Shown here piece by piece: positions 289 through 31,740 of a stretch of DNA of 32,006 nucleotides. The stretch is from an uncultured Akkermansia sp. (GTDB lineage: Bacteria; Verrucomicrobiota; Verrucomicrobiia; Verrucomicrobiales; Akkermansiaceae). The stretch covers positions 1-32,006 of the forward strand of contig CANQYL010000014.1 in the NCBI GenBank assembly GCA_947628035.1. Reading direction: 5' to 3'. Below the pieces are notes generated by a model. The model saw only the letters and a program-made list of their open reading frames with translations, made no database searches and had not been told where the DNA came from. Position numbers and translations under genes: made by a program. Position 1 is the first letter of the stretch. Each line of letters starts with the position of its first letter.

Positions 289-3200
289 ATGAGCAACGTG
301 AAGAGAATCGGCATAGAACTCATGAGAAGCGGGCTGCTACTTGCGATGAGTCTGGGGGTTTACGTGTATGGTTCCGAGGAGAAAGCACACGTGCCGACAG
401 TGCAGCAGAGAGAGCAGGAATTGAGGGAAGATGCCCACATCACGCAAGGAAAACTCAAGAGTGGGTTGCGTTACATCATTCGACCGACGTCCGAGCCAGT
501 CGGGCGTGGCTCAGTGCGTCTTTACGTCCACGTCGGTTCCCTCAGTGAGAACGAGCTGAACACAGGGTTTTCCCATTTGCTTGAGCATATGGTTTTCAAC
601 GGGAGTCGCAACTACAAACGAGGAGAACTCATTCCGGTGATGCAGAAGCTGGGACTCGGCTTCGGAGGCGATGCCAACGCGTACACGAGCTTCCGGGAAA
701 CCGTGTATATGCTGGATCTGCCCAACCTCCAGGAAAAAACGGTCGACACAGCTCTCACCATCATGCGCGATTTTGCGGATGGAGCCACGTTGGATGACGA
801 AGCCATTGACAAGGAGCGAGGTATCGTCATCAGCGAACTCAAGTCACGCGACTCCGCTTCCATGCGCGCCACCGTCAGTCTGTTGGAGCAGTTGAGTGAA
901 GGCACAAGGTTGGCCAAATACATGCCTATCGGCAAAGAAGAAGTACTGCGTCACGGGTCAGCCGACCTTGTGCGCAAGCAATACAAGGACTTTTACGTAC
1001 CGGGAAACATGGTACTCGTTCTCACCGGCGACTTTGAACCGAAACAGGCCGAAACGTGGATCAACAAACATTTCTCTGAGATGCAAGCTACGACCGTAGC
1101 ACCCATGCCGGAACTCGGTTCCCTCTCCCCCTCCTCCCAACCCGAAAAATTGATTCCTAACGAAGAACTCGCTGATTGCAACATCATCATTTCCATCGTG
1201 CGTCCTTTCGAGAAGAAACCTGATTCCTTGAAACAGCGGGCGACGGATTTGCCGTTACAGTTGGCTTGCGAAATGCTTAACCGACGCCTCAAGCGTCTCA
1301 CACACACTCCAGAATGTCCATTCAAAGTCGCCCGAACCGAGTGGGAGGATCTCTACCAAGTGACCGATCTTTCCACCCTCAGTATAACCACCGATCCTGC
1401 CAAGTGGCGACAGTCTCTGTCACTCGCTGTCGAGCAGCTGCGCCAAGCCATGCAGTTTGGCTTTGACCCCACAGAGCTGCAGGAAGCAACAGGGGCCCTC
1501 ATGGCCAACTTGCGACAAGCGCGCGACACATGGGAGACGATGCCGGCTTCAGCCATGGCGGATCTCATCGTACGTGCTCTCAGTGACGGGACGTTGATGA
1601 CCGATCCCGGGGAAGACATCCGCGCCATGGAGGTGGCGGTTCAACGCATTATGCAGAATCCGGAGCTCTGTCGGCGAGCTTTGGAGAAAGCATTTGACCT
1701 GCATCAGGCGAGGCTTACCCTCATGGGCAACCTTCCGAACGACAGCTCGGAAAAAGCACTCCGAGAAATCTTTGAACAAGCGCTCGCACAACCAGTGGAA
1801 GAGAGAGCATCTGAGACAACGAAACCCTTTGCATACGACACCATCGGTGTGCCCGGCGTCGTGTTGCACCGAGAGGATATCCAAGATCTCGGCATCACCA
1901 CTCTCACCCTTTCCAATGGCATCAAAATAAACCTTAAACCTATCGACTTTCGAAAGGGAAGCATACGCGTGACGGCGGCAGTCAACGGAGGAAGGCTTGC
2001 CCTACCCGACACGCCCGGACTCACACAAATGGTACGAGCTGTCATGCAGAGGGGCGGTCTTCAGGAACACAGCTACGATGAGCTGGAGAGTCTCTTCGCC
2101 TCCAAACGAGTCTCGCTAGACTTCGATCTTACTCCCACGCATATTGTTTTCACCGGATTGAGTTCCACAGAGGATCTTGAGTTGCAGTGCAAGTTGCTCG
2201 CTGCCTCCATCCTCTACCCCGGCTACAGAGAGGATGGCGAACTTCTTTTGCGTCACAGTCTTAACAATGAGTATCGCGATCTTGAGGCCACACCAAACGG
2301 TGTTTATGCCATGCAATCTCGCCGGGCTCTGTTTGGGAAAAATACACTCTTCGTTGTACCTCAGCGCGAGGAAATAGAAGCTCTTTCCGCCCAATCGGTC
2401 AGGGAGGTTCTCTCCCCTCTTCTGGAGAAGAACTTCACCGAAGTAAGTCTCGTGGGAGACTTTGATGTCGATGAGATCATCCCGATCCTTGAACGCACCT
2501 TTGGCGCCATGCCCCAACGTCGGACAGAACCGATACCCGTACCGGACACGAGACGTCGTGTGGAGTTCCAACCATGGGGGCAACGCGAGATCATGCGCTA
2601 CCCGACTGATCTTGACAAAACCATCGTAGCGCATGTGCACTATGCGGGCAACGGGAGAGATCTCCGTCGTAACCGTCGGCTCCATATCCTCTCCTCCATC
2701 GTGCGCGACAAACTCTTCAACGGTCTGCGCGCAAACATGGGAGAAAGCTACTCACCCAGTGCGAAACTGCAACTCAATCCGGACTTCGATAATGCTGCCC
2801 TGCTCACCACGGTAAGCTTCGGGGTAAAAGGTAACCGCACAAAGGTGAGCGCAGCCATGGAAAGTATCTGCACTGCCGTAGGACGAGGCGATATTTCCGA
2901 CGATGATTTTGAGCGGGCGAAGCGCCCCATTGTAGCAGCCATGCAGAAATCGCTCGTCTCTCCGGACTACTGGGAAGAAAATCTCATCGACCTGCAGAGT
3001 AACCCTCAACGCCTATCTCTCATGCGTGATTTTAGCAAGGATGTCCAAGGCATCACGGCAGACGAGATACGAGCTCTCGGTTGCGAAGTCTTTGGCAAAC
3101 CTGAGCAAACCAACTTTTACTTCGTCGTGCCTCAGGATACGGAAATTGATAAGGACGAAAACCAGGCTCAAGCCGGTCTAAACACCCGGGAAACAGAAGA

Positions 3201-4674
3201 GACTCCTGCCTTCAGCTCTCCTGCAGAGGGGGAATACGTCGTCCTGATGACGAAAGCTACGGCAGAGCGGGCAGAATGGAAAGCGGTGGCGGACGCGCTG
3301 CTGAAGAAATACGCCGGAGCCACGCTCGAAACCGTGGAAAAATTGGATGTAGAGAGTTGTGCGGAAACCCTGCGCAGGAGTGGCGCACGCTATGCCGCCA
3401 TCGTTCTGCGTCCCGAGGAGGTTAACCGAGCCACGGTTGACATCTTGCACCGAGCCACTCGAAAAATCGACGACGATCCGTACGGAGACTGCCTGTGGGG
3501 GATCATATCCGGAAGCAACGCGGAAGACGCTCTGCGCATCGCTCAGCATGAAAAACCGCTCATCATCACAAGTCTCCTCTCCACCATGGTCGAGCCCGAC
3601 TGCTCCCGGATGGAACGCAGTTTCTGCATGACAGAGAAGAAAGACTTCGCCATCACGGAACGCCATGGCTATGACTCGTCCTCCACCTCCACCTTCACCG
3701 CTGACACTCCGGAGGGTCTTGATGTCATCCAAAACGGCTTGCAACCCCGTTTCTCCTACCAGCTCTCCACGCAGGCACCTCAGCTTATCGTTGCCGGAGG
3801 ACACGGTTCACCCTTCAGTCTCGAAATGCCTTCGTGCAAGGGTCTCATCTTCTCCGCTGATAATCGTTTCCACCAAGTGGGCTGCCAACACCTCATCGCT
3901 TTTGCCAGCGCACGCCAGCCCGCCCTAGAAGGCAAAACGGGCGCACTGCAAAGTCTTGCAGAAGCGATGCATTTCCCCATCATTGAACCTGATGAGACCG
4001 TGCGAGTGTGGGTGGATATGGGTCCCGGGGAAAGAGGAGATGTCCACAGTACCACTCAAAGCATGGTCATCACGGCTCTCTCTGCTTACGGATGCAACCA
4101 ATTTTCCGGCTACACCGTGCCCTCCTGGCACCACGAGGCAGCCCAAAACACATTGCAGTTCTTTCTGAAACACACGGATGAAACAACTTTAGCTGAGGCC
4201 TTTTATCTGGGCAACCAGATGCTTATCGCTCGCACGTTGGAATTGGATCCGAAATTGCTCAATGTGCAGTTCAACGATTCGGAGATCAGTCCGACTCTCC
4301 AACGCGACATCCTGCAAGCAGGCGCTCATATACCCACGGCCAAAGCTCGTGAAGCAGTCGGGCTTGTCCAGGAACGCGACATCCTCGCATTCTTCGGCGA
4401 CCCCGCATGGGTAGCTGCAGTGGACAGCACGCGCATACCTGCCCCGCTTCAAATGACTTGGAACGAATCCGCTCGTGACCTCTCCATCACGGCGAGGATC
4501 GATTTTTCCGGACCCGCCGCCGCCCTTTTTCCCAAGCGGCTCCGGGAAGCTGAAACCATCAGCTGCAGCCTGAAAAATGCCATCATCACAGATGATTTCA
4601 TCCTCATTCCTTCCCTCTCCCTCAAAAAAGGAGAATCCATCACGATCCATCTGACGCCTGAGGGAACTAACTGA
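289..4674 (+). CDS. Secreted M16 (PqqL-like) zinc protease with gingipain-like C-terminal extension
   Basis: The 1461-residue protein begins with a signal peptide (hydrophobic segment about residues 14-27). An M16 peptidase domain follows with the inverted zinc motif HLLEH at residues 96-100; E183, in the segment ERGIVISE, is the likely third ligand. The NAYTSF and ETVY motifs around residues 130-140 match PqqL-type M16 proteases. Second and later M16-like domains run to about residue 985. PqqL-type proteins are usually around 930 residues. The extra 450-500 residues contain segments resembling gingipain/caspase-like (C25-like) domains: an 'RPEEVNRA' segment, 'DDDPYGDCLWGIISG', a GHG with candidate catalytic H1172, and a GYTVPSW segment. 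Where such domains usually have a G-N-C nucleophile motif, this protein reads G-P-G (about residues 1245-1247), so that domain may be inactive. It is probably periplasmic or outer-membrane associated. The M16 call is firm; the extension call is by recall of family motifs. A short intergenic gap separates it from the next gene. Confidence 0.85.
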   Translation: MSNVKRIGIELMRSGLLLAMSLGVYVYGSEEKAHVPTVQQREQELREDAHITQGKLKSGLRYIIRPTSEPVGRGSVRLYVHVGSLSENELNTGFSHLLEHMVFNGSRNYKRGELIPVMQKLGLGFGGDANAYTSFRETVYMLDLPNLQEKTVDTALTIMRDFADGATLDDEAIDKERGIVISELKSRDSASMRATVSLLEQLSEGTRLAKYMPIGKEEVLRHGSADLVRKQYKDFYVPGNMVLVLTGDFEPKQAETWINKHFSEMQATTVAPMPELGSLSPSSQPEKLIPNEELADCNIIISIVRPFEKKPDSLKQRATDLPLQLACEMLNRRLKRLTHTPECPFKVARTEWEDLYQVTDLSTLSITTDPAKWRQSLSLAVEQLRQAMQFGFDPTELQEATGALMANLRQARDTWETMPASAMADLIVRALSDGTLMTDPGEDIRAMEVAVQRIMQNPELCRRALEKAFDLHQARLTLMGNLPNDSSEKALREIFEQALAQPVEERASETTKPFAYDTIGVPGVVLHREDIQDLGITTLTLSNGIKINLKPIDFRKGSIRVTAAVNGGRLALPDTPGLTQMVRAVMQRGGLQEHSYDELESLFASKRVSLDFDLTPTHIVFTGLSSTEDLELQCKLLAASILYPGYREDGELLLRHSLNNEYRDLEATPNGVYAMQSRRALFGKNTLFVVPQREEIEALSAQSVREVLSPLLEKNFTEVSLVGDFDVDEIIPILERTFGAMPQRRTEPIPVPDTRRRVEFQPWGQREIMRYPTDLDKTIVAHVHYAGNGRDLRRNRRLHILSSIVRDKLFNGLRANMGESYSPSAKLQLNPDFDNAALLTTVSFGVKGNRTKVSAAMESICTAVGRGDISDDDFERAKRPIVAAMQKSLVSPDYWEENLIDLQSNPQRLSLMRDFSKDVQGITADEIRALGCEVFGKPEQTNFYFVVPQDTEIDKDENQAQAGLNTRETEETPAFSSPAEGEYVVLMTKATAERAEWKAVADALLKKYAGATLETVEKLDVESCAETLRRSGARYAAIVLRPEEVNRATVDILHRATRKIDDDPYGDCLWGIISGSNAEDALRIAQHEKPLIITSLLSTMVEPDCSRMERSFCMTEKKDFAITERHGYDSSSTSTFTADTPEGLDVIQNGLQPRFSYQLSTQAPQLIVAGGHGSPFSLEMPSCKGLIFSADNRFHQVGCQHLIAFASARQPALEGKTGALQSLAEAMHFPIIEPDETVRVWVDMGPGERGDVHSTTQSMVITALSAYGCNQFSGYTVPSWHHEAAQNTLQFFLKHTDETTLAEAFYLGNQMLIARTLELDPKLLNVQFNDSEISPTLQRDILQAGAHIPTAKAREAVGLVQERDILAFFGDPAWVAAVDSTRIPAPLQMTWNESARDLSITARIDFSGPAAALFPKRLREAETISCSLKNAIITDDFILIPSLSLKKGESITIHLTPEGTN

Positions 4675-6054: not shown

Positions 6055-7386
6055 GTGCGCCGGTACATCGTCAAGCGACTGATTCTGGCTCCGATCACGC
6101 TGATCGGAGTTACGTTGATCGTGTTTTGTCTGACCCGCATAGTGCCGGGAGGTCCCGTGGACAGGATCCTCCAAGAACAGGTCATCGCCTCGCTCTCCGG
6201 GGAAAAAACGAGTGGCATCAACACATCACAGGTCAGTGATGCCGAGCGCGAAAAACTGGAGGATCTCTTCAATCTCAACGAACCCATCTTTAAAGCCTAC
6301 CTCCAATGGCTCGGCATCCTTCGCTCCCGCACAAACATCAACCGCGCCGAATTTAGCTCCGAAGGACGCGCAACCATCACTCTTTCCGCACCGGACGGAT
6401 CCCCCCGCACTCTGGATATCCAACGGGAGGGACTCACGCCCCGCTTCCATGCACCTGCCTGGTTTAGCGAAGAAGGTTGGAAGCTCATCATTGAGCCGCC
6501 AAAAGAACCGAGCAAACAGCATCCCCGTACTTCGACGCGACCTTTTCCACCGCACCATGAAGCATCCGACCTCGCCCGACGCGCCGGCAGCAGACCATGG
6601 CGTGCCGTCATATTCCGGGAGGAATGGAACGGTCTCCTGCAGGGCAATCTCGGTAGCTCCTACAAGTACAACGAGCCCGTCCTTTCCATGATTCTCAGCC
6701 GGCTCCCTGTCTCCCTCTACTTCGGCATCCTGGCCGCCATCATCACCTACTTGATCAGTATTCCTCTCGGCGTTTTCAAGACCATGCATCACGGCAGCTG
6801 GACCGATAGCGTCACCAGCATCCTCGTCTTCATCGGTTATGCGGTACCCGGCTTTGCTCTGGGTGCCGTGCTGCTCATCTATCTCGGGGCCAGACTGGAA
6901 TATTTCCCTCTGTACGGCCTCACGAGCGTGAATTATGAGAGCATGAGCCTCAATGAAAAAATCTCCGACCTGGCGGCGCACACCGTCCTTCCCCTCACCT
7001 GCTACATCATCGGAGCCCTCGCCACGACCACAATGATGGTCAAGAACAACCTGATGGAAAACTTGGCGACCGACTATATGCGCACAGCGGCAGCCAAGGG
7101 GCTCAGCTTCCGGCGCTCCACGTGGCTCCACGCCCTGCGAAATGCGATCATCCCCGTGGCCTCAGGTCTCGGGGGCGTCATCTGTTCCGTCGTGGGAGGT
7201 TCCATCCTCATTGAGCGCGTTTTTGACATCCGAGGCTTCGGCATGCTGAGTTTCCAAGCGCTCATGGACAAAGATTACACACTTATCATGGGCACCCTCC
7301 TCCTCAGCTCCGTCATCATTATCCTGGGCAATCTGCTTTCAGATATTCTCGTCGCCTGGCTTGATCCCCGCATCAAATTTCGTTAA
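6055..7386 (+). CDS. yejB: Peptide ABC transporter permease, YejB/OppB-like
   Basis: A 443-residue inner-membrane permease of the dipeptide/oligopeptide family. The N-terminus (RRYIVKRL followed by a hydrophobic helix and TRIVPGGPVD) is typical of OppB/YejB. The core permease domain spans about residues 215-440, with an EAA-loop segment (YMRTAAAKGLSFRRSTWLHALRN region) that contacts the ATPase. Between the first helix and the core there is an inserted periplasmic-looking region (about residues 90-200), making it longer than OppB (about 306) and YejB (about 360). The GTG start at 6055 is chosen because the promoter leaves no earlier option. The stop is directly abutted by the ATG of the partner permease, so the two are in one operon. 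Substrate (peptides, possibly microcin-like or murein peptides) is inferred from the family only. Confidence 0.85.
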   Translation: MRRYIVKRLILAPITLIGVTLIVFCLTRIVPGGPVDRILQEQVIASLSGEKTSGINTSQVSDAEREKLEDLFNLNEPIFKAYLQWLGILRSRTNINRAEFSSEGRATITLSAPDGSPRTLDIQREGLTPRFHAPAWFSEEGWKLIIEPPKEPSKQHPRTSTRPFPPHHEASDLARRAGSRPWRAVIFREEWNGLLQGNLGSSYKYNEPVLSMILSRLPVSLYFGILAAIITYLISIPLGVFKTMHHGSWTDSVTSILVFIGYAVPGFALGAVLLIYLGARLEYFPLYGLTSVNYESMSLNEKISDLAAHTVLPLTCYIIGALATTTMMVKNNLMENLATDYMRTAAAKGLSFRRSTWLHALRNAIIPVASGLGGVICSVVGGSILIERVFDIRGFGMLSFQALMDKDYTLIMGTLLLSSVIIILGNLLSDILVAWLDPRIKFR

Positions 7387-8982
7387 ATGAAAAAGAACTC
7401 GCTAGCCCTGATTCTCATCGCAGCGGCGCTCCTGAGCTCCGTTGCCGAACTGCGCGGCTGGCTTCTTCCTACCCTCTCCTGGTCTTTTTCTGTCTCCCGA
7501 CAGCTCAGTTTCCTCTCTGCTCCGCCGGAGCTCTGCCCCGCTCTGGCGGCTGACGGACGGGTACACTGGTTCGGCTGGATGATTGTCGTCCTTCTCATTG
7601 CGACAGGTTTCTATCTCCTGCTGCGTCCCTCATCCCGCTTCAAACTATCCCCTCAAGCTCGACGCAGCATAACATTATTCCGAGCTCACAAACGAGCCTC
7701 TCTTTCTCTCCTTTTGTTGGGGGGACTCGTTCTCTTTGCCGCAGCCGACCAACTCATCGTGGGAAAACGCGCCCTCGCTGTACAAACTGAACAGGGTGAA
7801 TGGTTCTTCCCCGCTTTTCAACGCAACATCATCCCGGGTGCGACCTTCGGTCTCTCCGGCAACGCCGCCCTTGCAGAAACCGACTACCGGGCCCTGCATG
7901 CCGCCCTCGGCAAGCCGGGAGGTCCGCAGTTTGTTCTCATGCCTCTCATCCCGTGGAATCCTACCGGTGATCCGGCGCCCTACCCAATGGAAAAATTGGT
8001 GGTGAAAGAGGGTCTGCTCTATACGCCGGACGGCACCTCCCTCTTTGATGGGCAAGCCTGCCGTCTCTTCCGCAACGGGGAAGTGCACCTGCGTATCCGT
8101 TACCGGCGCGGCAAGCCCGACGGTCATGTGCAGGGCTGGAACAGAGAACGCCGTGAGGTGTACTCCGCGCTCTGGCAGAGTGGTCAACTCCTTTCTGAAT
8201 CATACTCCGGCGAGGGATCTACCCCCAACTTTCTGCAGCAAAGCACCACGGATCACTTCCTCGTCCACTACCACCCTGCTCCGCCGTTCACCGGAGGACA
8301 CCTCCTCGGCACAGACAGCGCAGGAGATGACATAGCCGCCTACCTTTTCGGAGGACTTCAGGTGAACATTCAGGCAGCCATCTTCTACCTGCCTTTCATC
8401 TACGCCATCGGACTGTCCATCGGTATGCTCATGGGCTACTGGGGCGGCACGTTCGACATCGTGACACAACGCTTCATCGAGATCCTCTCTCAGCTTCCGT
8501 TCCTATTCCTGGTGATGATTCTGACGGATTTTGTTCCGGTAAGTCTGAGAGGAATGTTCGTAACTCTTGCGCTGATGATTATACTGGGATGGATGCCGAT
8601 GACCTACCTGATTCGCACGGCGACCATGCGAGAGAAAGCGCGTGACTACGTAGCGGCAGCTCGCTCCATGGGCGCCGGCTCCCTGCATATTATGCTGCGT
8701 CACGTCCTGCCGAATCTCTCACCCATCATCATCACCCTCATCCCCTTCAGCGTGGCTACGGTTGTGCTCTCCCTCACCTCGCTGGATTACCTCGGCTTCG
8801 GACTTCCGGATTCCTACGCCGCGTGGGGGCGCTTGCTCAACGATGGGTTGGCAAAACTTTCCTCCCCATGGGTGGCCTCCGCCGCTGTGGGTGCACTTGT
8901 CGTCCTCCTCCTGCTCATCACTTTCATCGGTGAGGGGGTGCGTGACGTTACCGACCCGCACCGCCATTCCCACTACGAATAG
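7387..8982 (+). CDS. yejE: Peptide ABC transporter permease, YejE/OppC-like, with large periplasmic insert
   Basis: 531 residues, much longer than OppC (about 300) or YejE (about 340). After N-terminal membrane helices there is a segment like that of YejE: a WFFPAFQRN stretch, then FGLSGNAALAETDYRA, then PLIPWNP. Around residues 205-275 the sequence RLFRNGEVHLRIRYRRGKP and what follows resembles MORN_2/YwqK-type repeats, which is unusual in a permease. The core permease domain begins after the LLGTDSAGDD segment (equivalent to the GTD-x-x-G-R-D motif) and contains the EAA-loop segment YVAAARSMGAGSLHIMLRH. It would pair with the YejB-like permease to form the membrane channel. The start codon directly follows the upstream stop, and the binding-protein gene follows after nine bases. 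Confidence 0.85.
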   Translation: MKKNSLALILIAAALLSSVAELRGWLLPTLSWSFSVSRQLSFLSAPPELCPALAADGRVHWFGWMIVVLLIATGFYLLLRPSSRFKLSPQARRSITLFRAHKRASLSLLLLGGLVLFAAADQLIVGKRALAVQTEQGEWFFPAFQRNIIPGATFGLSGNAALAETDYRALHAALGKPGGPQFVLMPLIPWNPTGDPAPYPMEKLVVKEGLLYTPDGTSLFDGQACRLFRNGEVHLRIRYRRGKPDGHVQGWNRERREVYSALWQSGQLLSESYSGEGSTPNFLQQSTTDHFLVHYHPAPPFTGGHLLGTDSAGDDIAAYLFGGLQVNIQAAIFYLPFIYAIGLSIGMLMGYWGGTFDIVTQRFIEILSQLPFLFLVMILTDFVPVSLRGMFVTLALMIILGWMPMTYLIRTATMREKARDYVAAARSMGAGSLHIMLRHVLPNLSPIIITLIPFSVATVVLSLTSLDYLGFGLPDSYAAWGRLLNDGLAKLSSPWVASAAVGALVVLLLLITFIGEGVRDVTDPHRHSHYE

Positions 8983-8991
8983 TCATCCCTC

Positions 8992-11199
8992 ATGTTTTCC
9001 TCCCTTCTTCACAGCTTTCGACGAACCCTCTCTCTCCCGACCGGATTGATGGTGGTGGTGTTGCTTCTGTGCAGCTGCGGGGAGGACCCGGAAGCTCGAG
9101 GGATCGATTGGACTCCCCCTCCGGACTCATCCCTGCCCCCAGGCTTCTCCGACGATGACCACGTACCTGCCTATGTCCGAGCCTGGCACATGCCTCCGGG
9201 ATTCCGCGGTTTCCCCACCCGCTGGAACGCGCGTGTGCGTTCCTACCTCGAGCAGGAACTGCAGAAGCAGCAGTCTGTCATTGACGAAGAAGAAGCCCGT
9301 CAGGCAGCCTCCGCCACACCTAGTGCACCGGAGGCACAACCCACCTCTCGTCTCCTCTATGCACTCGCCGAGAGAGAAAAGTACCGTTCCCGCCTCTCCA
9401 TGGGAGACTACCTCGTCTTCCTCACCGAAAAGGAACTGCCTCCTGACCTGCATTGGCAGAAAGGAGACAATCAGCCGGAACTCGGCGATCCTGCCGCCAT
9501 CAAAGGAGGCTCCTTGCGCATCGGTCTGCAACGCACCTTTCCCAATACACTGCGGGTCTTCGGTCCCAACAGCAACAATGCCACCCGACGGTACATTTAC
9601 AATGACATCGAGCTCCCCCTCGTGCGCATCCACCCACAAACGGGCGCCCTGATACCCGGAACGGCAGACCGTTGGGCTGTCTCTCCCGGTGGAAAGACCA
9701 TCTACTTTCACATCGACCCGAAGGCACGCTTCTCCAATGGCGATCCCCTGACGGCGCGTGACTTCGTGAGCTCTCTCTACCTGCGCACCTCTCCCTACAG
9801 CGCGGAGCCTTTTTATACGGACTACTATCTGAGCTCCTTCGCTCGGATAGCGGTGTACGGAGATCACGTAGTGGGTCTGACCCTCCCGGCGCCGCGTCCC
9901 TACTCTGCTTTTTACGCCGGGTCTCTCCCCTCGACCTGCACACGGTTCTTCGCAGAGTTCGGACCGGACTTTCCGCAGAGGTATTTGTGGCGGGCGGTTC
10001 CCACGACAGGAGGCTACGCTGTAGATGCCGACGGGGTAACCATGGGGAGTCGGATCACCCTTTCACGTGTGAAAAACTGGTGGGCTGCCGACCGACGATA
10101 CACGCGCTATTCCTGCAACGTGGATCACATCGTTTACTCATTCATCGCAGAAGGGGCGAAAATGCGCGAACTCTTCCGCATCGGCGAGTTGGATGTTATC
10201 TCGGCACGAGACTCCGATTATTGGTATGAAGGGCTGGAGATTCCTCCTGTGCATGCCGGTTACATCCAACGCGTGCGCTTTGCCAACGAATGGCCGCGCA
10301 ACAGCTTCGGTTTCCATCTCAACTGCTCCGCTCCACCCTTTAACGACATCTGCGCCCGCCTCGGATTCCACCACGCCCTCAACGTACAAGCCGTCATCGA
10401 CACCCTTTTCCGCGGAGATTTTCGACGCGGATCATCCTATTTCTCCGGCTTCGGCGCCTTTACCAATCCACACATCCGCGCCCTGCCGTACGACCCCTCC
10501 TTGGCGCGCGACTACTTCACTCGTGCCGGCTACACGGTGGAAGGAGCCGACGGCATCTTGCAGAAACCGGACGGTTCTCGTCTGCGGGTAACAGTGAGTT
10601 CCCGCATCGACCCGACCTATGCCGCGGCGATGAACATCCTGCGCGAGGATGCTGCCCGCTGCGGGCTACAGCTTGATTTTGAGCAAATGGATGACACCGT
10701 CTTCTACCTCAAAGTAAAAAACAAGCAATACACCGCCTGCATCTTTTCCTGGGGATTTACACCTCCCGTGCCGGATGCCTCGCCCTACTTCCTGTCCCAA
10801 TATGCTGTGGACGCAGAGGGCAACCCTATCCCCGGCACCTCCAACATCACCGCCATAGCCGACCCGCAACTGGATCGCGCCATCCTCGCCGCCCGCTCCG
10901 CGTCCTCCATGCAGGAGGCTATCGACGCTCAACATGCCGTACAGAAAGCTATCGCCGACACCGCTTGTTGGGTTCCCGGCTGGTCATCGGGGTTCTGGCG
11001 CTTCGCGCAGTGGCGTTGGCTCTGCTGGCCCAACTCTGCAACCACGCACTTTTGCCCCCCTCTCTACTATGACCCGCTGGATAGTCATCTGTACTGGATT
11101 GCCCCCCAAAAGAAGCGTGAGACTGAACGAGCGCGCGCCGAGGGAATGCGATTTCCGGAGGTCGAATTGAACATCCCCCTGCCTTCCTCTCACCCATGA
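8992..11199 (+). CDS. Extracellular solute-binding lipoprotein, family 5 (OppA/YejA-like)
   Basis: The 735-residue protein starts with a signal peptide whose hydrophobic core (VVVLLL) is followed by a lipobox-like L-C-S-C, placing the acylated cysteine at about residue 29. Residues 30-160 are proline- and charge-rich and look like a linker or extra domain. From about residue 160 it matches periplasmic peptide-binding proteins of family 5: a GGSLRIGLQRTFPN start, a YNDIELPLV and 'GALIPGTADRW' region, a 'KARFSNGDPLTARDF' segment, and later 'NEWPRNSFGFHLN'. It should capture peptides and deliver them to the two permeases encoded upstream. Its stop overlaps the ATPase start (ATGA at 11196-11199), pointing to translational coupling. 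Total length exceeds typical OppA (about 540) and YejA (about 600). Confidence 0.85.
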   Translation: MFSSLLHSFRRTLSLPTGLMVVVLLLCSCGEDPEARGIDWTPPPDSSLPPGFSDDDHVPAYVRAWHMPPGFRGFPTRWNARVRSYLEQELQKQQSVIDEEEARQAASATPSAPEAQPTSRLLYALAEREKYRSRLSMGDYLVFLTEKELPPDLHWQKGDNQPELGDPAAIKGGSLRIGLQRTFPNTLRVFGPNSNNATRRYIYNDIELPLVRIHPQTGALIPGTADRWAVSPGGKTIYFHIDPKARFSNGDPLTARDFVSSLYLRTSPYSAEPFYTDYYLSSFARIAVYGDHVVGLTLPAPRPYSAFYAGSLPSTCTRFFAEFGPDFPQRYLWRAVPTTGGYAVDADGVTMGSRITLSRVKNWWAADRRYTRYSCNVDHIVYSFIAEGAKMRELFRIGELDVISARDSDYWYEGLEIPPVHAGYIQRVRFANEWPRNSFGFHLNCSAPPFNDICARLGFHHALNVQAVIDTLFRGDFRRGSSYFSGFGAFTNPHIRALPYDPSLARDYFTRAGYTVEGADGILQKPDGSRLRVTVSSRIDPTYAAAMNILREDAARCGLQLDFEQMDDTVFYLKVKNKQYTACIFSWGFTPPVPDASPYFLSQYAVDAEGNPIPGTSNITAIADPQLDRAILAARSASSMQEAIDAQHAVQKAIADTACWVPGWSSGFWRFAQWRWLCWPNSATTHFCPPLYYDPLDSHLYWIAPQKKRETERARAEGMRFPEVELNIPLPSSHP

Positions 11200-12173
11200 A
11201 TCCTTTTCTTCTCAGTGTACGTGACCTGACCGTCGCCTTCCGTACGGAGCACGACGTTTTCCCCGTTGTGGAGGACGTGAATTTCGATATTGAGCACGGG
11301 TGTTGCGTCGGCATCGTGGGCGAAAGCGGCTGCGGCAAGAGCGCTACCGCGATGAGCCTGCTGCGACTCCTTCCTCAGCCGACCGGGCAAATTCTCTCAG
11401 GTTCCGTTTCCTTCCAAGGAAAAGATCTCCTTCATCTGCCTCTCAAACAACTCCGCGCTATCCGCGGCAACCGCATCGGCACCATCTTCCAGGAACCCAT
11501 GCAGGCTCTCAACCCCGTCCAGCGCATAGGAGACCAGATTGCGGAGGTCCTCCGTCTGCACAAGGGAATGAGCGAAACCGAGGCTCTGCAGGAAGCCGTA
11601 CGTCTGTTGGATGCCGTGCAGATCTCCGCCCCGGAGAGACGTGTCCATGAATACCCGCACTCCCTCTCGGGCGGTATGCGTCAGAGGGTTCTCATTGCCA
11701 TGGCGGTGGCTTGTCGTCCCAACCTCATCATAGCCGATGAGCCCACCACCGCCTTAGATGTCACGGTGCAACAGCAAATTCTCTCGTTGCTTCGCGAGAT
11801 GCGCTCCGATCTCGGAGCCGCCTGTCTTCTCATCACGCACGATATGGGGGTCATTGCGGAGAATTGCGATTACGTTTGGGTCATGTACGCAGGACGTTTG
11901 GTAGAGGGAGCCCCGGTGAGAGAACTCTTCTCCCATCCTTGCCATGCCTACACACACGCCCTTTTGCGCTCCATGATCACACCCGACCTCCCCCACAAGA
12001 CCCCTCTCTACACCGTGCCGGGTACCGTTGCCAGCCCGCGTCACTTTGTCCCGGGCTGCCGATTTTGCCAACGCCTGGGGCGCACCGGTGACACGCTCCT
12101 GCAACGTCCTTCCATAGTTGAAATCACTCCGTCTCACTTCGTAGAAGCCTGCCCCCTCTGCACCCATTCATGA
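11196..12173 (+). CDS. oppD: Peptide ABC transporter ATP-binding protein, OppD-like
   Basis: A 325-residue cytoplasmic ATPase with all nucleotide-binding motifs: Walker A GESGCGKS (residues 42-49), a Q-loop in FQEPMQALNP, signature LSGGMRQR, Walker B IIADEPTTALD, and an H-loop in LLITHDMG. The C-terminal end (PGCRF...ACPLC) is the cysteine-containing oligopeptide-specific tail found in OppD/OppF. The length equals a single-domain OppD (about 330), while YejF carries two such domains in about 530 residues. A second ATPase (OppF) normally follows; here only a short coupled ORF does. The protein might form a homodimer or pair with an ATPase encoded elsewhere. Confidence 0.9.
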   Translation: MNPFLLSVRDLTVAFRTEHDVFPVVEDVNFDIEHGCCVGIVGESGCGKSATAMSLLRLLPQPTGQILSGSVSFQGKDLLHLPLKQLRAIRGNRIGTIFQEPMQALNPVQRIGDQIAEVLRLHKGMSETEALQEAVRLLDAVQISAPERRVHEYPHSLSGGMRQRVLIAMAVACRPNLIIADEPTTALDVTVQQQILSLLREMRSDLGAACLLITHDMGVIAENCDYVWVMYAGRLVEGAPVRELFSHPCHAYTHALLRSMITPDLPHKTPLYTVPGTVASPRHFVPGCRFCQRLGRTGDTLLQRPSIVEITPSHFVEACPLCTHS

Positions 12174-12361: not shown

Positions 12362-13819
12362 ATGGGAGTGACGAAAAATTGTACCATGAATGCCGGGGAT
12401 TCATCGTGTGGACAGGATCCTGCCGGAGCAGAGGCTACGCATGCGAAAAACATTGCGCCCGCGGACACGTCCTCCGTTACCCCACGTCCCGATGGCAGCA
12501 TTTACATGGGTGGATTCCGTGCCCCGAAAATTAAGTGCGTGCGCGTGGCTGTCATCGGTCTGGGCGAGCGAGGGGCTCTCCAGACACTCCATTTTCTGAG
12601 CATCCCTCATTGCGAGGTGGTGGCGATTTGTGATCCTTATGACGACGCCACCAAGGCGGTAGCGGGCCAAATCGAACAACGCACAGGCAAACGTCCTGCC
12701 GAATACAACAAGGATCCCCTGGCTTACAAGAAAATGCTCGCAGAGATGAAACCGGATGCCGTCATCATCAACACCCCGTGGGAGACGCACGCCCGGATGG
12801 CTATTGACGCCATGGAGGCCGGGGCGCACGCGTTGGTGGAGGTGCCGCTGGCGATCTCTCTGGAAGATATATGGCGTGTGGTGGACACCTCGGAGCGCAC
12901 ACAAAAGCACTGCATGATGCTGGAGAACTGCAACTACGGACGCAACGAGCTGATGTTCCTGAACATGGTTCGCAAGGGGCTGATCGGTGAGTTGCTGCAT
13001 GGCGAAGCCGCCTACATCCATGAACTGCGCAGTCAGATGTTCAGTGAGAATCGCGGCGGCGACTCGTGGCGTGCTAAGCATTACGCCGCGCGTAACGGCA
13101 ATTTGTACCCGACGCACGGACTCGGTCCCGTCGCGCAGTACATGAGTCTCGCCCGTGGAGAAGACACCTTCGACCGCATCGTCTCCTTCAGCAGTCCCGC
13201 CAAGGGGCGCGCCGCCTACGCCAAGAAGCACTTTGCTCCCGACCACAAATGGAACAAGCTGGACTTCAAGTGCGGTGACATGAGCAACTCCATCATCAAG
13301 ACGAAGCTCGGTCGCACCATTCTCGTGCAGTGGGATGAGACGAGTCCCCGTCCCTACGACCGTAAGAACCTCATCCAGGGCACCGAGGGAACCCTCGCGG
13401 ATTATCCCTTGCGCGTCGCGGGTGAGCATATCAGCCCCGGTGTTCCCGAATCCCTTAAGAAAAAGCAGCCCGGGGGCGCGGAGATTAGCTCTGAAGGCGG
13501 CTACCACGAGTGGTATGAAGGAGAAAAGGCTGAAGCCGACCTCTATGCCAAGTACGACCACCCACTCTACAAGCGCCTGGGCGAAGAAGCCCGACAAAAA
13601 GACGACCGTGGAGGCATGAATTACATCATGCTTTACCGCGTCATTGAGTGCCTGCACAACGGCGAACCGATGGATCAAAATGTGTACGAGGGCGCGTTCT
13701 GGTCGGCTGTCGGACCTCTGTCCGAGAAATCGGTGAACGAAGGAGGAGCCCCTCAAATCTTCCCGGACTTTACCCGCGGCGATTGGGAAAACACAACACC
13801 CCTGCCTATCATACCATAA
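12362..13819 (+). CDS. GH109-like NAD-dependent glycosidase, copy 1 (no signal peptide)
   Basis: A 485-residue Gfo/Idh/MocA-fold protein. The Rossmann nucleotide site VAVIGLGERG is near residues 61-70, and an EVP motif follows in the cofactor/substrate region. Segments MLENCNYGRNE and RNGNLYPTHGLGP are hallmarks of GH109 alpha-N-acetylgalactosaminidases, which use NAD+ transiently to cleave GalNAc from blood-group A and O-glycans. Y249 and H252 in the YPTH segment correspond to the residues known to be important in that family. The N-terminus (MGVTKNCTMNAG...) aligns with the secretion signal of the downstream copy but has lost its hydrophobic core, and a TGA in frame upstream rules out a longer start other than a non-ATG one. 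The protein would therefore stay in the cytoplasm or be non-functional. It is a tandem duplicate of the next gene. Confidence 0.85.
   Translation: MGVTKNCTMNAGDSSCGQDPAGAEATHAKNIAPADTSSVTPRPDGSIYMGGFRAPKIKCVRVAVIGLGERGALQTLHFLSIPHCEVVAICDPYDDATKAVAGQIEQRTGKRPAEYNKDPLAYKKMLAEMKPDAVIINTPWETHARMAIDAMEAGAHALVEVPLAISLEDIWRVVDTSERTQKHCMMLENCNYGRNELMFLNMVRKGLIGELLHGEAAYIHELRSQMFSENRGGDSWRAKHYAARNGNLYPTHGLGPVAQYMSLARGEDTFDRIVSFSSPAKGRAAYAKKHFAPDHKWNKLDFKCGDMSNSIIKTKLGRTILVQWDETSPRPYDRKNLIQGTEGTLADYPLRVAGEHISPGVPESLKKKQPGGAEISSEGGYHEWYEGEKAEADLYAKYDHPLYKRLGEEARQKDDRGGMNYIMLYRVIECLHNGEPMDQNVYEGAFWSAVGPLSEKSVNEGGAPQIFPDFTRGDWENTTPLPIIP
13250..13740 (+). repeat. Identical direct-repeat tract, copy A (in GH109 gene 1)
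   Basis: Read base by base, this stretch of 491 bases equals 15026-15516 with no difference, while sequence on both sides is diverged (first mismatches at 13249/15025 and 13741/15517). It encodes the central-to-late part of the GH109 proteins. The pattern suggests recent gene conversion between the two copies. Confidence 0.9.
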
Positions 13820-13869: not shown

Positions 13870-14101
13870 TACGCATGGGGATGCAAAGTAATAGCGGAAC
13901 GAAATTTTAACAATGAGGGGAGCTACGAGAAAAACGTCCGGAGGTAGGCAAAGCCGTCTTGCCGGATTTGCTGCCATCGTCCAGAGCAAAGGCATTTTTC
14001 ATGCGTTTGCTATATGCAAACCACGCTTTGAGAAAGAAAGATTGAAAGAAACTTTAACTCGGCTACGTATTGCTAACGGTACACGAAAAATTACTCTACC
14101 T

Positions 14102-15595
14102 ATGAACATACGAAATCAGTTGAAAAGAGTGATGGGGATGGTGACGAGTTTCACCATGATTTTCAGTGGCTTGTTGTGTGCACAGGATCCGGGTCCTGCC
14201 GGAGCGGAGGCCACACATGCGAAGAACATTGCGCCGGTGGACACGTCTGCCGTTACCCCGCGTCCTGAGGGCAGCATCTACATGGGTGGATTCCGTGCTC
14301 CGAAAATTGAACACGTGCGTGTGGCAGTCATCGGTCTGGGCGAGCGCGGAGAATACCAGGCGCTCCATTTCCTGAGCATCCCTCATTGCGAGGTGGTAGC
14401 GGTGTGCGATCTATTTGAAGACGCCACGAAGAAAGTGGCGGATCGCATCGAGAAGCGCACGGGCAAGCGCCCCGCCGAATACAACAAGGATCCCTTGGCG
14501 TACAAGAAAATGCTCGCAGAGATGAAACCGGATGCCGTCATCATCAACACCCCGTGGGAGACGCACGCTCAGATGGCTATTGATTCTATGGAGGCCGGGG
14601 CGCACGCATTTGTGGAGGTACCGATGGCGATCACTCTGGAAGATATATGGCGCGTGGTGGACACCTCGGAGCGCACGCATAAGCACTGCATGATGCTGGA
14701 AAACTGCAACTATGGACGCAATGAGCTGATGTTCCTGAACATGGTCCGCAAGGGGCTGATCGGCGAGCTGCTGCACGGCGAGGCCGCCTACATTCACGAG
14801 CTGCGTATGCAGATGAAGAGCGAGAACCGCGGCTGCGGCTCGTGGCGTACGAATCATTACGCCGCGCGTAACGGCAATTTGTACCCGACGCACGGACTCG
14901 GTCCTGTTGCGCAATACATGAGTCTCGCCCGTGGAGAGGACTCCTTTGACCGCATCGTCTCCTTCAGCAGTCCCGCCAAGGGGCGCGCCGCCTATGCCAA
15001 AAAGCACTTTGCTCCCGACCACAAGTGGAACAAGCTGGACTTCAAGTGCGGTGACATGAGCAACTCCATCATCAAGACGAAGCTCGGTCGCACCATTCTC
15101 GTGCAGTGGGATGAGACGAGTCCCCGTCCCTACGACCGTAAGAACCTCATCCAGGGCACCGAGGGAACCCTCGCGGATTATCCCTTGCGCGTCGCGGGTG
15201 AGCATATCAGCCCCGGTGTTCCCGAATCCCTTAAGAAAAAGCAGCCCGGGGGCGCGGAGATTAGCTCTGAAGGCGGCTACCACGAGTGGTATGAAGGAGA
15301 AAAGGCTGAAGCCGACCTCTATGCCAAGTACGACCACCCACTCTACAAGCGCCTGGGCGAAGAAGCCCGACAAAAAGACGACCGTGGAGGCATGAATTAC
15401 ATCATGCTTTACCGCGTCATTGAGTGCCTGCACAACGGCGAACCGATGGATCAAAATGTGTACGAGGGCGCGTTCTGGTCGGCTGTCGGACCTCTGTCCG
15501 AGAAATCGGTGAACGAGGGAGGCGCCCCGCAGGTCTTCCCGGATTTCACGCGCGGCGACTGGAAAAATACGGCTCCGCTTCCCATCATCCCGTAA
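14102..15595 (+). CDS. Secreted GH109-like alpha-N-acetylgalactosaminidase, copy 2
   Basis: Start ATG 14102 gives 497 residues beginning with a good Sec signal peptide: basic MNIRNQLKR, a hydrophobic core (MGMVTSFTMIFSGLL) and a probable cut after LLCA at residue 27. A longer in-frame start at 13913 exists but would bury the signal peptide behind 63 extra residues. The mature protein has the NAD-binding VAVIGLGERG, the MLENCNYG motif and RNGNLYPTHGLGP, with Y261 and H264 matching the key residues of GH109. It is expected to act in the periplasm, removing alpha-linked GalNAc from mucin or blood-group A glycans by NAD-dependent redox-elimination chemistry. The gene is a tandem copy of 12362-13819 with an offset of 1776 bases in the aligned region. 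Substrate specificity is inferred from the family. Confidence 0.88.
   Translation: MNIRNQLKRVMGMVTSFTMIFSGLLCAQDPGPAGAEATHAKNIAPVDTSAVTPRPEGSIYMGGFRAPKIEHVRVAVIGLGERGEYQALHFLSIPHCEVVAVCDLFEDATKKVADRIEKRTGKRPAEYNKDPLAYKKMLAEMKPDAVIINTPWETHAQMAIDSMEAGAHAFVEVPMAITLEDIWRVVDTSERTHKHCMMLENCNYGRNELMFLNMVRKGLIGELLHGEAAYIHELRMQMKSENRGCGSWRTNHYAARNGNLYPTHGLGPVAQYMSLARGEDSFDRIVSFSSPAKGRAAYAKKHFAPDHKWNKLDFKCGDMSNSIIKTKLGRTILVQWDETSPRPYDRKNLIQGTEGTLADYPLRVAGEHISPGVPESLKKKQPGGAEISSEGGYHEWYEGEKAEADLYAKYDHPLYKRLGEEARQKDDRGGMNYIMLYRVIECLHNGEPMDQNVYEGAFWSAVGPLSEKSVNEGGAPQVFPDFTRGDWKNTAPLPIIP
15026..15516 (+). repeat. Identical direct-repeat tract, copy B (in GH109 gene 2)
   Basis: Exact partner of 13250-13740 (491 bases, no mismatch seen), flanked by diverged sequence within the same gene. 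Confidence 0.9.
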
Positions 15596-15657: not shown

Positions 15658-17712
15658 ATGAGTTTTCATCAGATCATAACAGCTTTGGCAGCGCTAGGTA
15701 TGGCGGTCGGTGGGTTGACCTCCGCGCAGGAAACGGGAGCCCAAACGGGCGCCCTCTGCGGTGTCATAACAGTTTCCAATGAGAATCAAGTCATGATAGA
15801 GAACAAATATATTGCCGTTGAGATTGAAAAAGTTGGTCGCAAGCTCGTCAATGTGACGATCCTTGATAAAGTAAACGGGCGCACCTACAATCTCGGGAAG
15901 GACATTTTCCGCCTCGAGGTGCTGGATGAGCAGACGGATGAGGCGTGCTCCAAGAAAGAAGTGGCGGAGACGAAGCATGCCCTGACGGCGTCGGATTTGC
16001 TCTGCGGCGATCTCGTGGTGGATGAACTGCCTGCCAAACCGGAGGCGCGCCGGCTCGTGGAGCGGGTGAAAGGCACGCGGTTGAGCGTTCCCTTTGCCGT
16101 GCCGACAGATGGCAACAAGATGACGTGGTGGCTGGAGTTGCGTGAGGATACGCCTTACGTTCGCGTGGGGTTGGATATCACGCCCCAGCAATTTGCCATG
16201 CCGGTCCGAAAGCTCACGCTTCTGAACGTCACGGCGAAGGAAGCCCGCGTAGAGGGGAAAGTCAAAGGTGCACCCATTGTCGCGTCAGGGAACAGGCTTT
16301 TTGCGGGCGTGGAGCATCCGATGAGTTTGAGCGAGGTGACGGAGAAAGGATTCACCTGTTCGCTGGAGCGCAAGACGGATTTACCGCGGCGCACGGCGAG
16401 TCAGTTCTCCGCCGTGCTCGGCTTCAGTGAGCCGGGACAATTGAGACGTACGTTCCAACTGAGGTACCTGAACAACGAGCGCGCTCGCGCCTATGCCCCC
16501 TTCCTCAATTACAACACGTGGTACGACATCGGCTACTTCACTCCCTACGACGAAAAGGCCATTCTCGATACCGTCAAACTCTTCGGCGATGAGCTCGTCA
16601 CCAAACGCGGCGCCGTCATCGATTCCTTCATGATGGACGATGGCTGGGACGACACGGAGACACTCTGGCAGTTCCACAAGGGTCTGCCCAACGAGTTCCG
16701 CAAGGTGCGCGAGCTGGCGGAGAGCTTCCACGCCGGTCCCGGCGTGTGGCTTTCCGCCTGGGGCGGTTACGGCGGACCGAGAGAGAAGCGCCTTGCCGCC
16801 GCAAAGGGAAAATACGAGACCAATGAGGGCGGCTTTGCTCTCTCCGGTCCGAAGTACTACGAGTACTTCCGCGACCTGTGCCTGCACATGATTCGCGAAA
16901 ACGGGGTCAATCACTTCAAGTTTGACGGCACCTCCAGCGAGGCGACGCCGGCGGAGGGTTCCCAATTCGGATCGGACTTTGAAGCCATCATCGCCCTCAT
17001 CGAGGAGCTGCGCAACGAGCGTCCGGATATCTACATCAACCTCACCACAGGCACCTGGCCGTCCCCGTTCTGGTTCGGCATCGCCGACTCCATCTGGCGC
17101 GGCAACTGGGACCACGATTTCTGCGGCGAGGGGTCGGACCGTAATCAGTGGATCACCTTCCGTGACTCCCAGATCTACGCCAACAACGTCGCGGTTTCTC
17201 CTCTCTGCCCCATCAACTCCCTCATGACCCACGGTGTCCTCTACAACAAGAGTGCGCACCACCTCACCACCACCTCCGGCGATGACCTCGCCAAGGAAAT
17301 TTGGAGCGGCTTCGCCCTCGGCACGCAGATGCAGGAGCTCTACGTCACCCCCTCCATGCTCAAGCCCGAGGAATGGGATGTGATCGCCGCCGCGGCCAAG
17401 TGGACCCGGGAAAATGCCGACACGATGGTGGATTCTCACTGGGTGGGCGGAGACCCCGCCGCGCTTGAGGTGTACGGCTTTGCCTCCTGGTCGCCGAAGA
17501 AGGGGATCCTCGCCCTGCGCAACCCCTCCTCCAAGCCGCAGAGCTTCTTCTTTGACCCGGCAGCCGTCTTTGAGCTTCCGGTCGGAGCTCCGACTTCCTT
17601 CAAGCTTTCCTCCCCGAAGGGAGATAAGCTGCCGGCTGACTCCGTGAGCGTGGGCAAGCCCCTTAAGATTGACCTCGAGCCTTTCCAGGTCATTGTTCTT
17701 GAGGCCGAGTAA
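15658..17712 (+). CDS. Secreted GH36/clan GH-D-like alpha-galactosidase or alpha-GalNAcase
   Basis: A 684-residue protein with a signal peptide (hydrophobic ALAALGMAVGGL, likely cut after TSA near residue 23). Residues 30-270 look like an N-terminal beta-sandwich. A TIM-barrel region follows: NYNTWYDIGYF, then a FMMDDGWDD motif, then HFKFDGTSS whose D423 sits where clan GH-D enzymes have their nucleophile. RGNWDHDF (D485 or D487) may hold the acid/base. A small beta domain closes the chain (from about residue 610). GH27/GH36 enzymes remove terminal alpha-galactose or alpha-GalNAc. Placement right after two GH109 genes suggests work on blood-group or mucin glycans in the periplasm. The exact family is not certain; GH36-like is the best match by eye. 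A strong terminator follows the gene. Confidence 0.7.
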   Translation: MSFHQIITALAALGMAVGGLTSAQETGAQTGALCGVITVSNENQVMIENKYIAVEIEKVGRKLVNVTILDKVNGRTYNLGKDIFRLEVLDEQTDEACSKKEVAETKHALTASDLLCGDLVVDELPAKPEARRLVERVKGTRLSVPFAVPTDGNKMTWWLELREDTPYVRVGLDITPQQFAMPVRKLTLLNVTAKEARVEGKVKGAPIVASGNRLFAGVEHPMSLSEVTEKGFTCSLERKTDLPRRTASQFSAVLGFSEPGQLRRTFQLRYLNNERARAYAPFLNYNTWYDIGYFTPYDEKAILDTVKLFGDELVTKRGAVIDSFMMDDGWDDTETLWQFHKGLPNEFRKVRELAESFHAGPGVWLSAWGGYGGPREKRLAAAKGKYETNEGGFALSGPKYYEYFRDLCLHMIRENGVNHFKFDGTSSEATPAEGSQFGSDFEAIIALIEELRNERPDIYINLTTGTWPSPFWFGIADSIWRGNWDHDFCGEGSDRNQWITFRDSQIYANNVAVSPLCPINSLMTHGVLYNKSAHHLTTTSGDDLAKEIWSGFALGTQMQELYVTPSMLKPEEWDVIAAAAKWTRENADTMVDSHWVGGDPAALEVYGFASWSPKKGILALRNPSSKPQSFFFDPAAVFELPVGAPTSFKLSSPKGDKLPADSVSVGKPLKIDLEPFQVIVLEAE

Positions 17713-20401: not shown

Positions 20402-21403
20402 TTACTTCGCCATGGCTTCTTCCACAGCGACAGCCACGGAAACGGTGGCGCCGACCATGGGGTTGTTCCCCATGCCGATGAGTCCCATCATCTCCACGTG
20501 AGCTGGTACGGAAGATGAGCCGGCAAACTGCGCATCACTGTGCATACGACCCAAGGTGTCGGTAAAACCGTAGGAGGCGGGACCGGCAGCCATGTTATCC
20601 GGATGCAGGGTACGCCCCGTTCCTCCACCGGAGGCAACAGAGAAATACTTCTTACCCTTCAGCACGCACTCCTTTTTGTAAGTACCGGCCACGGGGTGTT
20701 GGAAGCGTGTCGGATTCGTGGAGTTGCCGGTGATGGACACATCCACACCCTCCAGCCACATGATCGCCACACCTTCTCGCACATCATCCGCTCCGTAGCA
20801 GTTCACTTTGGAGCGCTCTCCCGTGGAAAACGGCGTCTTTTTCACGACCTCGACTTTACCGGTGGAGTAGTCAAACTTGGTCTGGCAGTACGTAAAGCCG
20901 TTGATGCGGGAAATAATGTACGCAGCATCCTTACCGAGGCCGTTGAGGATCACGCGCAGAGGCTTCTTACGCACCTTGTTAGCCGAGCGAGCAATTCCGA
21001 TCGCCCCCTCTGCAGCCGCAAATGACTCATGCCCCGCCAAAAAGCAGAAGCAATCCGTCTCCTCGCGCAACAGCATAGCAGCCAAATTCCCGTGCCCCAG
21101 ACCCACCTTGCGGTCATCCGCCACTGAGCCGGGGATACAGAAACTCTGAAGTCCCTCACCGATGGCTTCGGCGGCATCAGCGGCTTTCTTGCAGCCCTTT
21201 TTGATAGCGATGGCAGCGCCGACGGTGTAGGCCCAGCCCGCATTATCAAAGGCGATGTTTTGGATACCGCGCACGATAGCGCGCACATCAATTCCTTTCT
21301 CAAGGCAAACCTTTTCCGCATCCTCACAGGAGTCAATGCCGTACTTCTTGAGCACAGGCAGGATCTGATTGATACGGCGATCGTATGATTCAAATAGTGG
21401 CAT
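20402..21403 (-). CDS. GGGtGRT family protein
   Basis: A 333-residue cytoplasmic protein (no signal peptide or membrane segment) carrying the motif GGGTGRT at residues 259-265 that names this conserved family of anaerobes. Other conserved-looking features are several cysteines (C26, C33, a C-F-C pair and later ones), a GHGNLAAMLLREET segment and a glycine-rich end (MMGLIGMGNNPMVGATVSVAVAVEE). The function of the family is unknown. It is typically found beside an iron-sulfur scaffold of NifU type, as here, with the scaffold gene 25 bases upstream on the same strand, so an Fe-S-related role is likely but inferred. The start ATG at 21403 has a poor Shine-Dalgarno. A strong terminator follows. 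Confidence 0.85.
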   Translation of the reverse strand: MPLFESYDRRINQILPVLKKYGIDSCEDAEKVCLEKGIDVRAIVRGIQNIAFDNAGWAYTVGAAIAIKKGCKKAADAAEAIGEGLQSFCIPGSVADDRKVGLGHGNLAAMLLREETDCFCFLAGHESFAAAEGAIGIARSANKVRKKPLRVILNGLGKDAAYIISRINGFTYCQTKFDYSTGKVEVVKKTPFSTGERSKVNCYGADDVREGVAIMWLEGVDVSITGNSTNPTRFQHPVAGTYKKECVLKGKKYFSVASGGGTGRTLHPDNMAAGPASYGFTDTLGRMHSDAQFAGSSSVPAHVEMMGLIGMGNNPMVGATVSVAVAVEEAMAK

Positions 21404-21428
21404 AATTGAAAATGAGGTTAAAGTTTAA

Positions 21429-22121
21429 TTACTCGTGGCGGGGATCAATGTATTTAGCGGCACCTTCAAATTGACCGTAGGTACCGGTGTATTTCTTGTA
21501 CGCCTCGTTCGCGTCCATGCCTTTCTTAATCTCCTCCATCATGGGACCTACCTTCACATACTGATACCCGCAGATTTCATCGTCTGCGTTCAACGCCAGT
21601 TTGGTGATGTAGCCTTCTGCCAGCTCAAGATAGCGGGACCCTTTCTTAAGGGTGCCGTAGAGAGTGCCCACCTGTGAACGCAGGCCCTTGCCCAGGTCTT
21701 CCAACCCTGCCCCAACCGGCAACCCTCCTTCGGAGTACGCACTCTGAGTGCGTCCGTATACGATCTGCAGGAAGAGTTCACGCATGGCGGTGTTGATGGC
21801 GTCGCACACCAAATCCGTGTTCAACGCCTCCAATATCGTCTTGCCCGGCAGGATTTCCGAAGCCATAGCGGCAGAATGCGTCATCCCCGAGCAGCCGATG
21901 GTCTCCACCAGCGCTTCCTGAATCACGCCTTCCTTCACGTTGAGAGTCAGCTTACACGCTCCCTGCTGCGGTGCGCACCAGCCTACTCCGTGCGTCAGTC
22001 CGGATATATCCTCGATCTTCTTAGATGCGGTCCACGCCCCCTCCTGTGGAATAGGCGCCGGGCCGTGGTTGCAGCCCTTTTTCACGCAACACATATGTTC
22101 AACTTCTGTTGTGTACTGCAT
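21429..22121 (-). CDS. NifU/IscU-type iron-sulfur cluster assembly scaffold
   Basis: 230 residues. The scaffold fold is recognised from GWCAPQQGACKLTLNV and ETIGCSGMTHSAAMASE, placing ligand-type cysteines at C49, C56 and C77. These should hold a transient Fe-S cluster before transfer to client proteins. An extra cysteine-rich N-terminus (C11, C12 and C17) may add a second metal site. The C-terminal 90 residues exceed a minimal IscU (about 128) and are typical of the version that accompanies GGGtGRT proteins. It is the first gene of a two-gene unit, with a promoter and about 70 bases of leader upstream. A stand-alone sufE elsewhere in the window shows the cell also has Suf-type machinery. Confidence 0.8.
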   Translation of the reverse strand: MQYTTEVEHMCCVKKGCNHGPAPIPQEGAWTASKKIEDISGLTHGVGWCAPQQGACKLTLNVKEGVIQEALVETIGCSGMTHSAAMASEILPGKTILEALNTDLVCDAINTAMRELFLQIVYGRTQSAYSEGGLPVGAGLEDLGKGLRSQVGTLYGTLKKGSRYLELAEGYITKLALNADDEICGYQYVKVGPMMEEIKKGMDANEAYKKYTGTYGQFEGAAKYIDPRHE

Positions 22122-31689: not shown

Positions 31690-31701
31690 GGGGCGCGCGC
31701 C

Positions 31702-31729
31702 ATTATACACGAAACACGCGTAGGAGCAA
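31702..31729 (-). promoter_or_regulatory. Promoter of the murCB-ddl-ftsQ unit
   Basis: Minus strand: TTGCTC (31729-31724), 16-base spacer, consensus TATAAT (31707-31702), then twelve bases, GC-rich, to the ATG at 31689. The leader would be about six bases. Confidence 0.65.
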
Positions 31730-31740
31730 GGCAAATCCAC

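Follow-up and report, generated by a model that had tools for sequence, protein, structure and literature searches.

The protein encoded at nucleotides 289-4674 (+) of the window, the 32,006-nucleotide stretch of uncultured Akkermansia DNA that was analysed, is probably a live M16 metallopeptidase bearing a catalytically dead, selectively maintained module, which derives from what was probably a fusion of two proteases. The open reading frame is uninterrupted, and its translation of 1461 amino acids consists of a signal peptide, the M16 metallopeptidase and a C25-like domain of ~480 residues that has lost its cysteine. By inspection of the translation, residues 1-29 (289-375, +) have a K/R-containing start followed by a hydrophobic stretch; with this Sec-type signal peptide at its N-terminus the protein reads as exported.

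The M16 part spans residues about 44-960 (418-3168, +). Pfam finds Peptidase_M16 (PF00675, 1.6e-24) and M16_C (PF05193, 2.6e-27), the latter in two stretches of the frame, which gives the paired homologous halves of peptidase family M16, of which the second is inactive. A PDB sequence search matches this part to 9ldy_A (E 4.1e-62) and to PqqL (6ofs_A, 5.1e-41); the alignment with 9ldy covers residues 44-825, and M16 peptidase matches reach residue 825. The zinc signature of the family, HxxEH with a downstream glutamate, is present as H96-L-L-E-H100 (574-588, +), the intact motif that the earlier note had reported, and the conserved segment ERGIVISE, of which one glutamate, E176 or E183, would be the third zinc ligand. 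The motif is intact wherever the N-terminus is present; from this and from its conservation the M16 module is likely to be a working zinc peptidase.

The remainder of the chain (residues 973-1461) has no convincing match in Pfam or NCBIfam, and none by sequence in the PDB. An AlphaFold2 model of the domain, computed from an alignment of 72 sequences comprising the window's protein and its relatives, has a mean pLDDT of 94.9 and a pTM of 0.94, and a Foldseek search with it has gingipain RgpB as its top match (E 1.1e-9), followed by gingipain K. In VIA-align 2 the model matches RgpB with Z 23.7 and rmsd 3.2 over 280 residues, the alignment spanning model residues 6-409 and so both caspase-like subdomains; Kgp has Z 21.9, the next family, Csx29, 13.4 and C11 peptidases about 7; these are among the top structural matches and point to the caspase-like fold of clan CD. 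The model of the cysteine-bearing copy of A. muciniphila matches RgpB with Z 22.5, and in Foldseek alone it had no gingipain among the matches listed. Predicted in the window's domain are an N-terminal pseudo-caspase subdomain like gingipain subdomain A (residues about 983-1088; 3235-3552, +; model residues 11-116, inside the span aligned with RgpB), a caspase-like subdomain like gingipain subdomain B, assigned from the model and the structural matches and expected to hold the active site (residues about 1090-1383; 3556-4437, +), and a C-terminal beta-sandwich (residues about 1384-1457; 4438-4659, +; model residues 412-485), which by its strands and the beta-sandwich domains aligned with it resembles the Ig-like domain of gingipains. 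This order, a pair of caspase-like subdomains and then the Ig-like one, is that of the gingipain fold, present here in a predicted model. The notion that the extension consists of further, inactive M16 domains was rejected: there is no M16 match past the two halves, and the fold is gingipain-like instead.

The earlier note had related short segments of the sequence to a gingipain or caspase-like family; the fold bears this out, and the implied sequence resemblance does not hold up. The C25 profile of Pfam (PF01364) matches neither the window's domain nor its relatives, nor anything in the Akkermansia genomes sampled in the search of the phylum. The domain is called C25-like because its fold matches gingipain but its match to the C25 sequence profile is not significant, and both its assignment to clan CD and its homology to C25 rest on predicted structure.

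The catalytic dyad is broken in the window. His1172 (3802-3804, +), at the catalytic histidine position, is kept, and G1245-P1246-G1247 (GGT CCC GGG; 4021-4029, +) stands where G-N-C is expected, with glycine at the nucleophile position; the earlier note had placed both correctly, and, on its question of which residue aligns with the catalytic cysteine, the cysteine of the relatives falls on Gly1247. In the model, the histidine (residue 200) comes just after strand 194-197 and the position of the lost cysteine (residue 275) after strand 267-271, with an inserted hairpin and two helices between them; the two positions would thus lie on successive core strands as in clan CD, the superposition on RgpB being known as aligned ranges and not residue by residue. 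A His-Cys catalytic dyad is a feature of clan CD (PMC12445089), and cysteine-bearing relatives have both residues. At column 1247 of an alignment of 116 rows, 106 rows have cysteine and the other 10, every one of them a member of the window's clade, have glycine; the histidine is present in 114 of the 116, and the exceptions again belong to that clade. Outside it, histidine and cysteine (the latter usually in the motif GNCL) were found in all inspected copies, from several phyla.

When genomes that had scored low in the scan of the genus were fetched afterwards, six more without the cysteine were found, and the Cys-less clade comprises 13 genomes from about a dozen species, the window and G352 being near-identical in this protein. 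All 13 have glycine at 1247 (G-P/S/T-G). The histidine is kept in five (the window, G352, G025, G008 and G014) and replaced by glutamine or proline in eight. A tree of the M16 part only, which is independent of the C25-like domain, unites the 13 as one clade (SH-aLRT 100) and needs one change for the cysteine and one for the histidine, the nearest sister (L044) keeping both; a tree of the C25-like domain with the motif columns removed agrees for the first seven Cys-less rows. The cysteine was lost once, in the clade that includes the window, and the histidine was lost later in eight of the 13 genomes. A well-placed cysteine hidden by misalignment, which the earlier note would have counted against itself, was excluded, the flanking strand and the G-x-x-x-x-G frame being gap-free in all 13 genomes, and the same glycine in 13 genomes speaks against a frameshift or assembly error as the source of Gly1247. 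No second, cysteine-bearing copy was found in the window's genome. Isolate names that begin with 'Lapin' suggest that several members of the clade came from rabbits.

The C25-like domain belongs to a family that has no Pfam coverage and is present in several phyla. A genome scan gave 421 encoding stretches, and the best 80 of the 421, which were examined, include Akkermansia, other Verrucomicrobiota, Lentisphaerota, Kiritimatiellota, Planctomycetota and Alistipes. Of 76 Akkermansia genomes 70 have the domain, which for the most part shares its reading frame with M16. The earlier note had asked for the same fusion in related genomes and had thought a metalloprotease joined to a dead domain an unusual design: the domain is probably dead here, but the fusion is common in the genus, normally with the His-Cys pair, and the missing cysteine is specific to one clade. 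In L054, L078, L084 and L089 the domain is a separate gene that adjoins M16 and begins with what looks like a signal peptide of its own, and in G023 and G009 M16 lies elsewhere in the genome; some other splits of domain and M16 (L045, L065, L074) resemble draft-assembly frameshifts. G233, an Akkermansia genome that is 99% complete, has neither a close M16 orthologue nor the C25-like domain, so the protein is dispensable. A search of the open literature brought up no paper describing an M16/gingipain-like protein from Akkermansia.

Outside Akkermansia the domain mostly stands alone. With an intact GNCL it precedes Transglut_core (PF01841) in L174:337-3021(-), L177:1022-3757(-), L178:616-3324(-) and L176:243-2678(-), and it occurs, also with intact GNCL, together with a transglutaminase-like domain (PF01841) in L114:618-4652(+); by these sequence matches the transglutaminase-like domain is a second fusion partner besides M16. 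EF-hand-like motifs precede the domain in L108:4533-6383(+) and L110:2455-4287(+), copies from Lentisphaerota and Kiritimatiellota. The long N-terminal part of the Alistipes frames was rejected as a fused domain, as it precedes a likely ATG with a lipoprotein signal.

Conserved columns were defined as those with the same residue in at least 95% of cysteine-bearing sequences, and were counted as changed if different in most of the 13; by this measure 30 of 103 changed in the domain against 5 of 167 in M16 (Fisher p 8e-10, a value that is indicative, the columns being linked by shared ancestry and not independent). Many of the changed columns belong to the loops of the histidine, the cysteine and GxGGWG or to the ITDW segment: residues 1282-1287 (4132-4149, +) replace the conserved G-x-G-G-W-G loop, and residues 1114-1117 (3628-3639, +) read MTEK where nearly all cysteine-bearing Akkermansia copies have ITDW. 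A preceding comparison, covering six species, found the changed positions all unchanged in the sister L044 and 0-5 changes in control clades.

An unlikely explanation, which nevertheless has some evidence for it, is passive retention, with the function gone and the domain left as a folding tail in slow erosion. Conserved positions outside the motif loops changed too, and the domain has evolved somewhat faster in the Cys-less clade, with a ratio of domain to M16 distance of 1.33 vs 1.02. Against erosion, the frame is full-length with HLLEH intact in all 13 genomes, and dN/dS in the domain, estimated by a simple counting method with some pairs near saturation, equals that of cysteine-bearing pairs (0.08-0.18 for Cys-less pairs vs 0.08-0.20). 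There has also been opportunity to lose the domain, because it is separated from M16 in other Akkermansia. The active site has collapsed and the protein has not; the C25-like domain is maintained by purifying selection. Having lost a catalytic residue from an otherwise catalytic family under continued purifying selection, the domain fits a pseudoenzyme of a peptidase fold, the activity of the catalytic relatives being assumed.

It is improbable that the family never contained a peptidase and that its fold, with the conserved histidine and cysteine, serves another reaction or a binding function throughout. No tested family member was found, and the C25 sequence match is, as noted, not significant; moreover, most copies read HAT, with alanine after the histidine, where the residue following the catalytic histidine is usually glycine. 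On the other side are the predicted gingipain fold with histidine and cysteine ending successive core strands, the near-invariance of both residues across several phyla, and the best hhalign path against 13 same-phylum C25 sequences, which, without being significant (P 0.16), sets histidine on the C25 histidine, cysteine on cysteine and FYGDPAW on GDPA.

A cysteine specific to the clade is also to be considered. Every one of the 13 Cys-less genomes has Cys1183 (3835-3837, +), which all other copies lack, and Cys1199 (3883-3885, +) is limited to the Cys-less clade and its sister; in the AlphaFold2 model the two face each other almost directly across the open end of a hairpin (214-218/221-225). 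That another residue such as Cys1183 took over from Cys1247 and the domain still cleaves is very improbable, despite the strict coincidence of Cys1183 with the loss, since the histidine is gone in eight of the 13 genomes although Cys1183 stays, the other active-site loops decayed simultaneously, and the hairpin register, putting Cys1183 opposite Cys1199, makes a disulfide likelier than a new nucleophile.

Under the preferred reading, a dead module kept on a live metallopeptidase, the Akkermansia protein probably began as an exported double peptidase, M16 with a His-Cys module; two proteases per chain would be the ancestral design because the fusion normally carries the pair. The C-terminal module, of gingipain (clan CD) fold, would descend from a His-Cys cysteine peptidase, and intact copies would still be active as peptidases. 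In the window's clade the nucleophile would have been lost once and not replaced, with the histidine following it in some species. With its nucleophile lost and unreplaced, the window's module should not cleave, and as judged from its residues the domain is presumably inert. As a non-catalytic part of the metallopeptidase, the dead module would most likely be retained for stability, to dock substrate or to govern how the M16 chamber is entered. The selection data show that the domain is maintained, not what its role is; most plausibly it would support or regulate M16, and the substrate-binding or regulatory module that the earlier note had suggested is one such putative role. The fuller proposal, that selection maintains it as a pseudopeptidase which has taken on substrate docking or gating for M16, the active sites of both modules being at work in close relatives, is tentative and has somewhat less than an even chance of being right.

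The neighbourhood was considered as a functional clue and set aside. Genes of a peptide-type ABC transporter lie downstream of the protease gene (6055-12173, +), but no function was drawn from neighbours because, among the loci checked, the transporter adjoins the protease gene only in the window's species and L049; AIM24 is near the protease gene in L057 also. Elsewhere in the window, MurC and MurB share one frame of 785 residues (29383-31740, -) near genes for Ddl and FtsQ; tandem GH109 genes (12362-13819 and 13913-15595, +) with near-equal Pfam scores are possibly a recent duplication; a GGGtGRT protein adjoins a NifU-like protein (20402-22121, -); and a frame of 684 residues (15658-17712, +) has no Pfam match.

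The mucus-associated gut genus Akkermansia has been studied intensively, and a putative exported double protease is widespread in it, A. muciniphila included. The window's clade offers a natural series from protease to pseudoenzyme, with an intact sister, loss of the cysteine and loss of the histidine, the partner enzyme remaining unchanged.

Among known systems, the N-terminal 960 residues are like PqqL (6ofs), the putative zinc protease 6b03 and 9ldy in having two M16 halves and HxxEH; unlike the window's protein, those chains, of 913-924 residues, are too short for a C25-like extension. The caspase-like proteases Csx29 and TPR-CHAT of Craspase have the clan CD core in common with the domain, as a clearly weaker match (Z 11-13.5); they are intracellular CRISPR partners carrying TPR repeats. 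The closest counterparts are the gingipains RgpB and Kgp (MEROPS C25, clan CD), with the same predicted fold of two caspase-like subdomains and then an Ig-like domain; gingipains and the cysteine-bearing relatives are alike in being exported, as far as signal peptides predict, and in having histidine and cysteine where successive core strands end. In contrast to gingipains, the C25-like family has no sequence-family match, 48-83 residues from histidine to cysteine and the motifs HAT and GNCL, and its domain is fused behind M16, in the window's copy without the cysteine.
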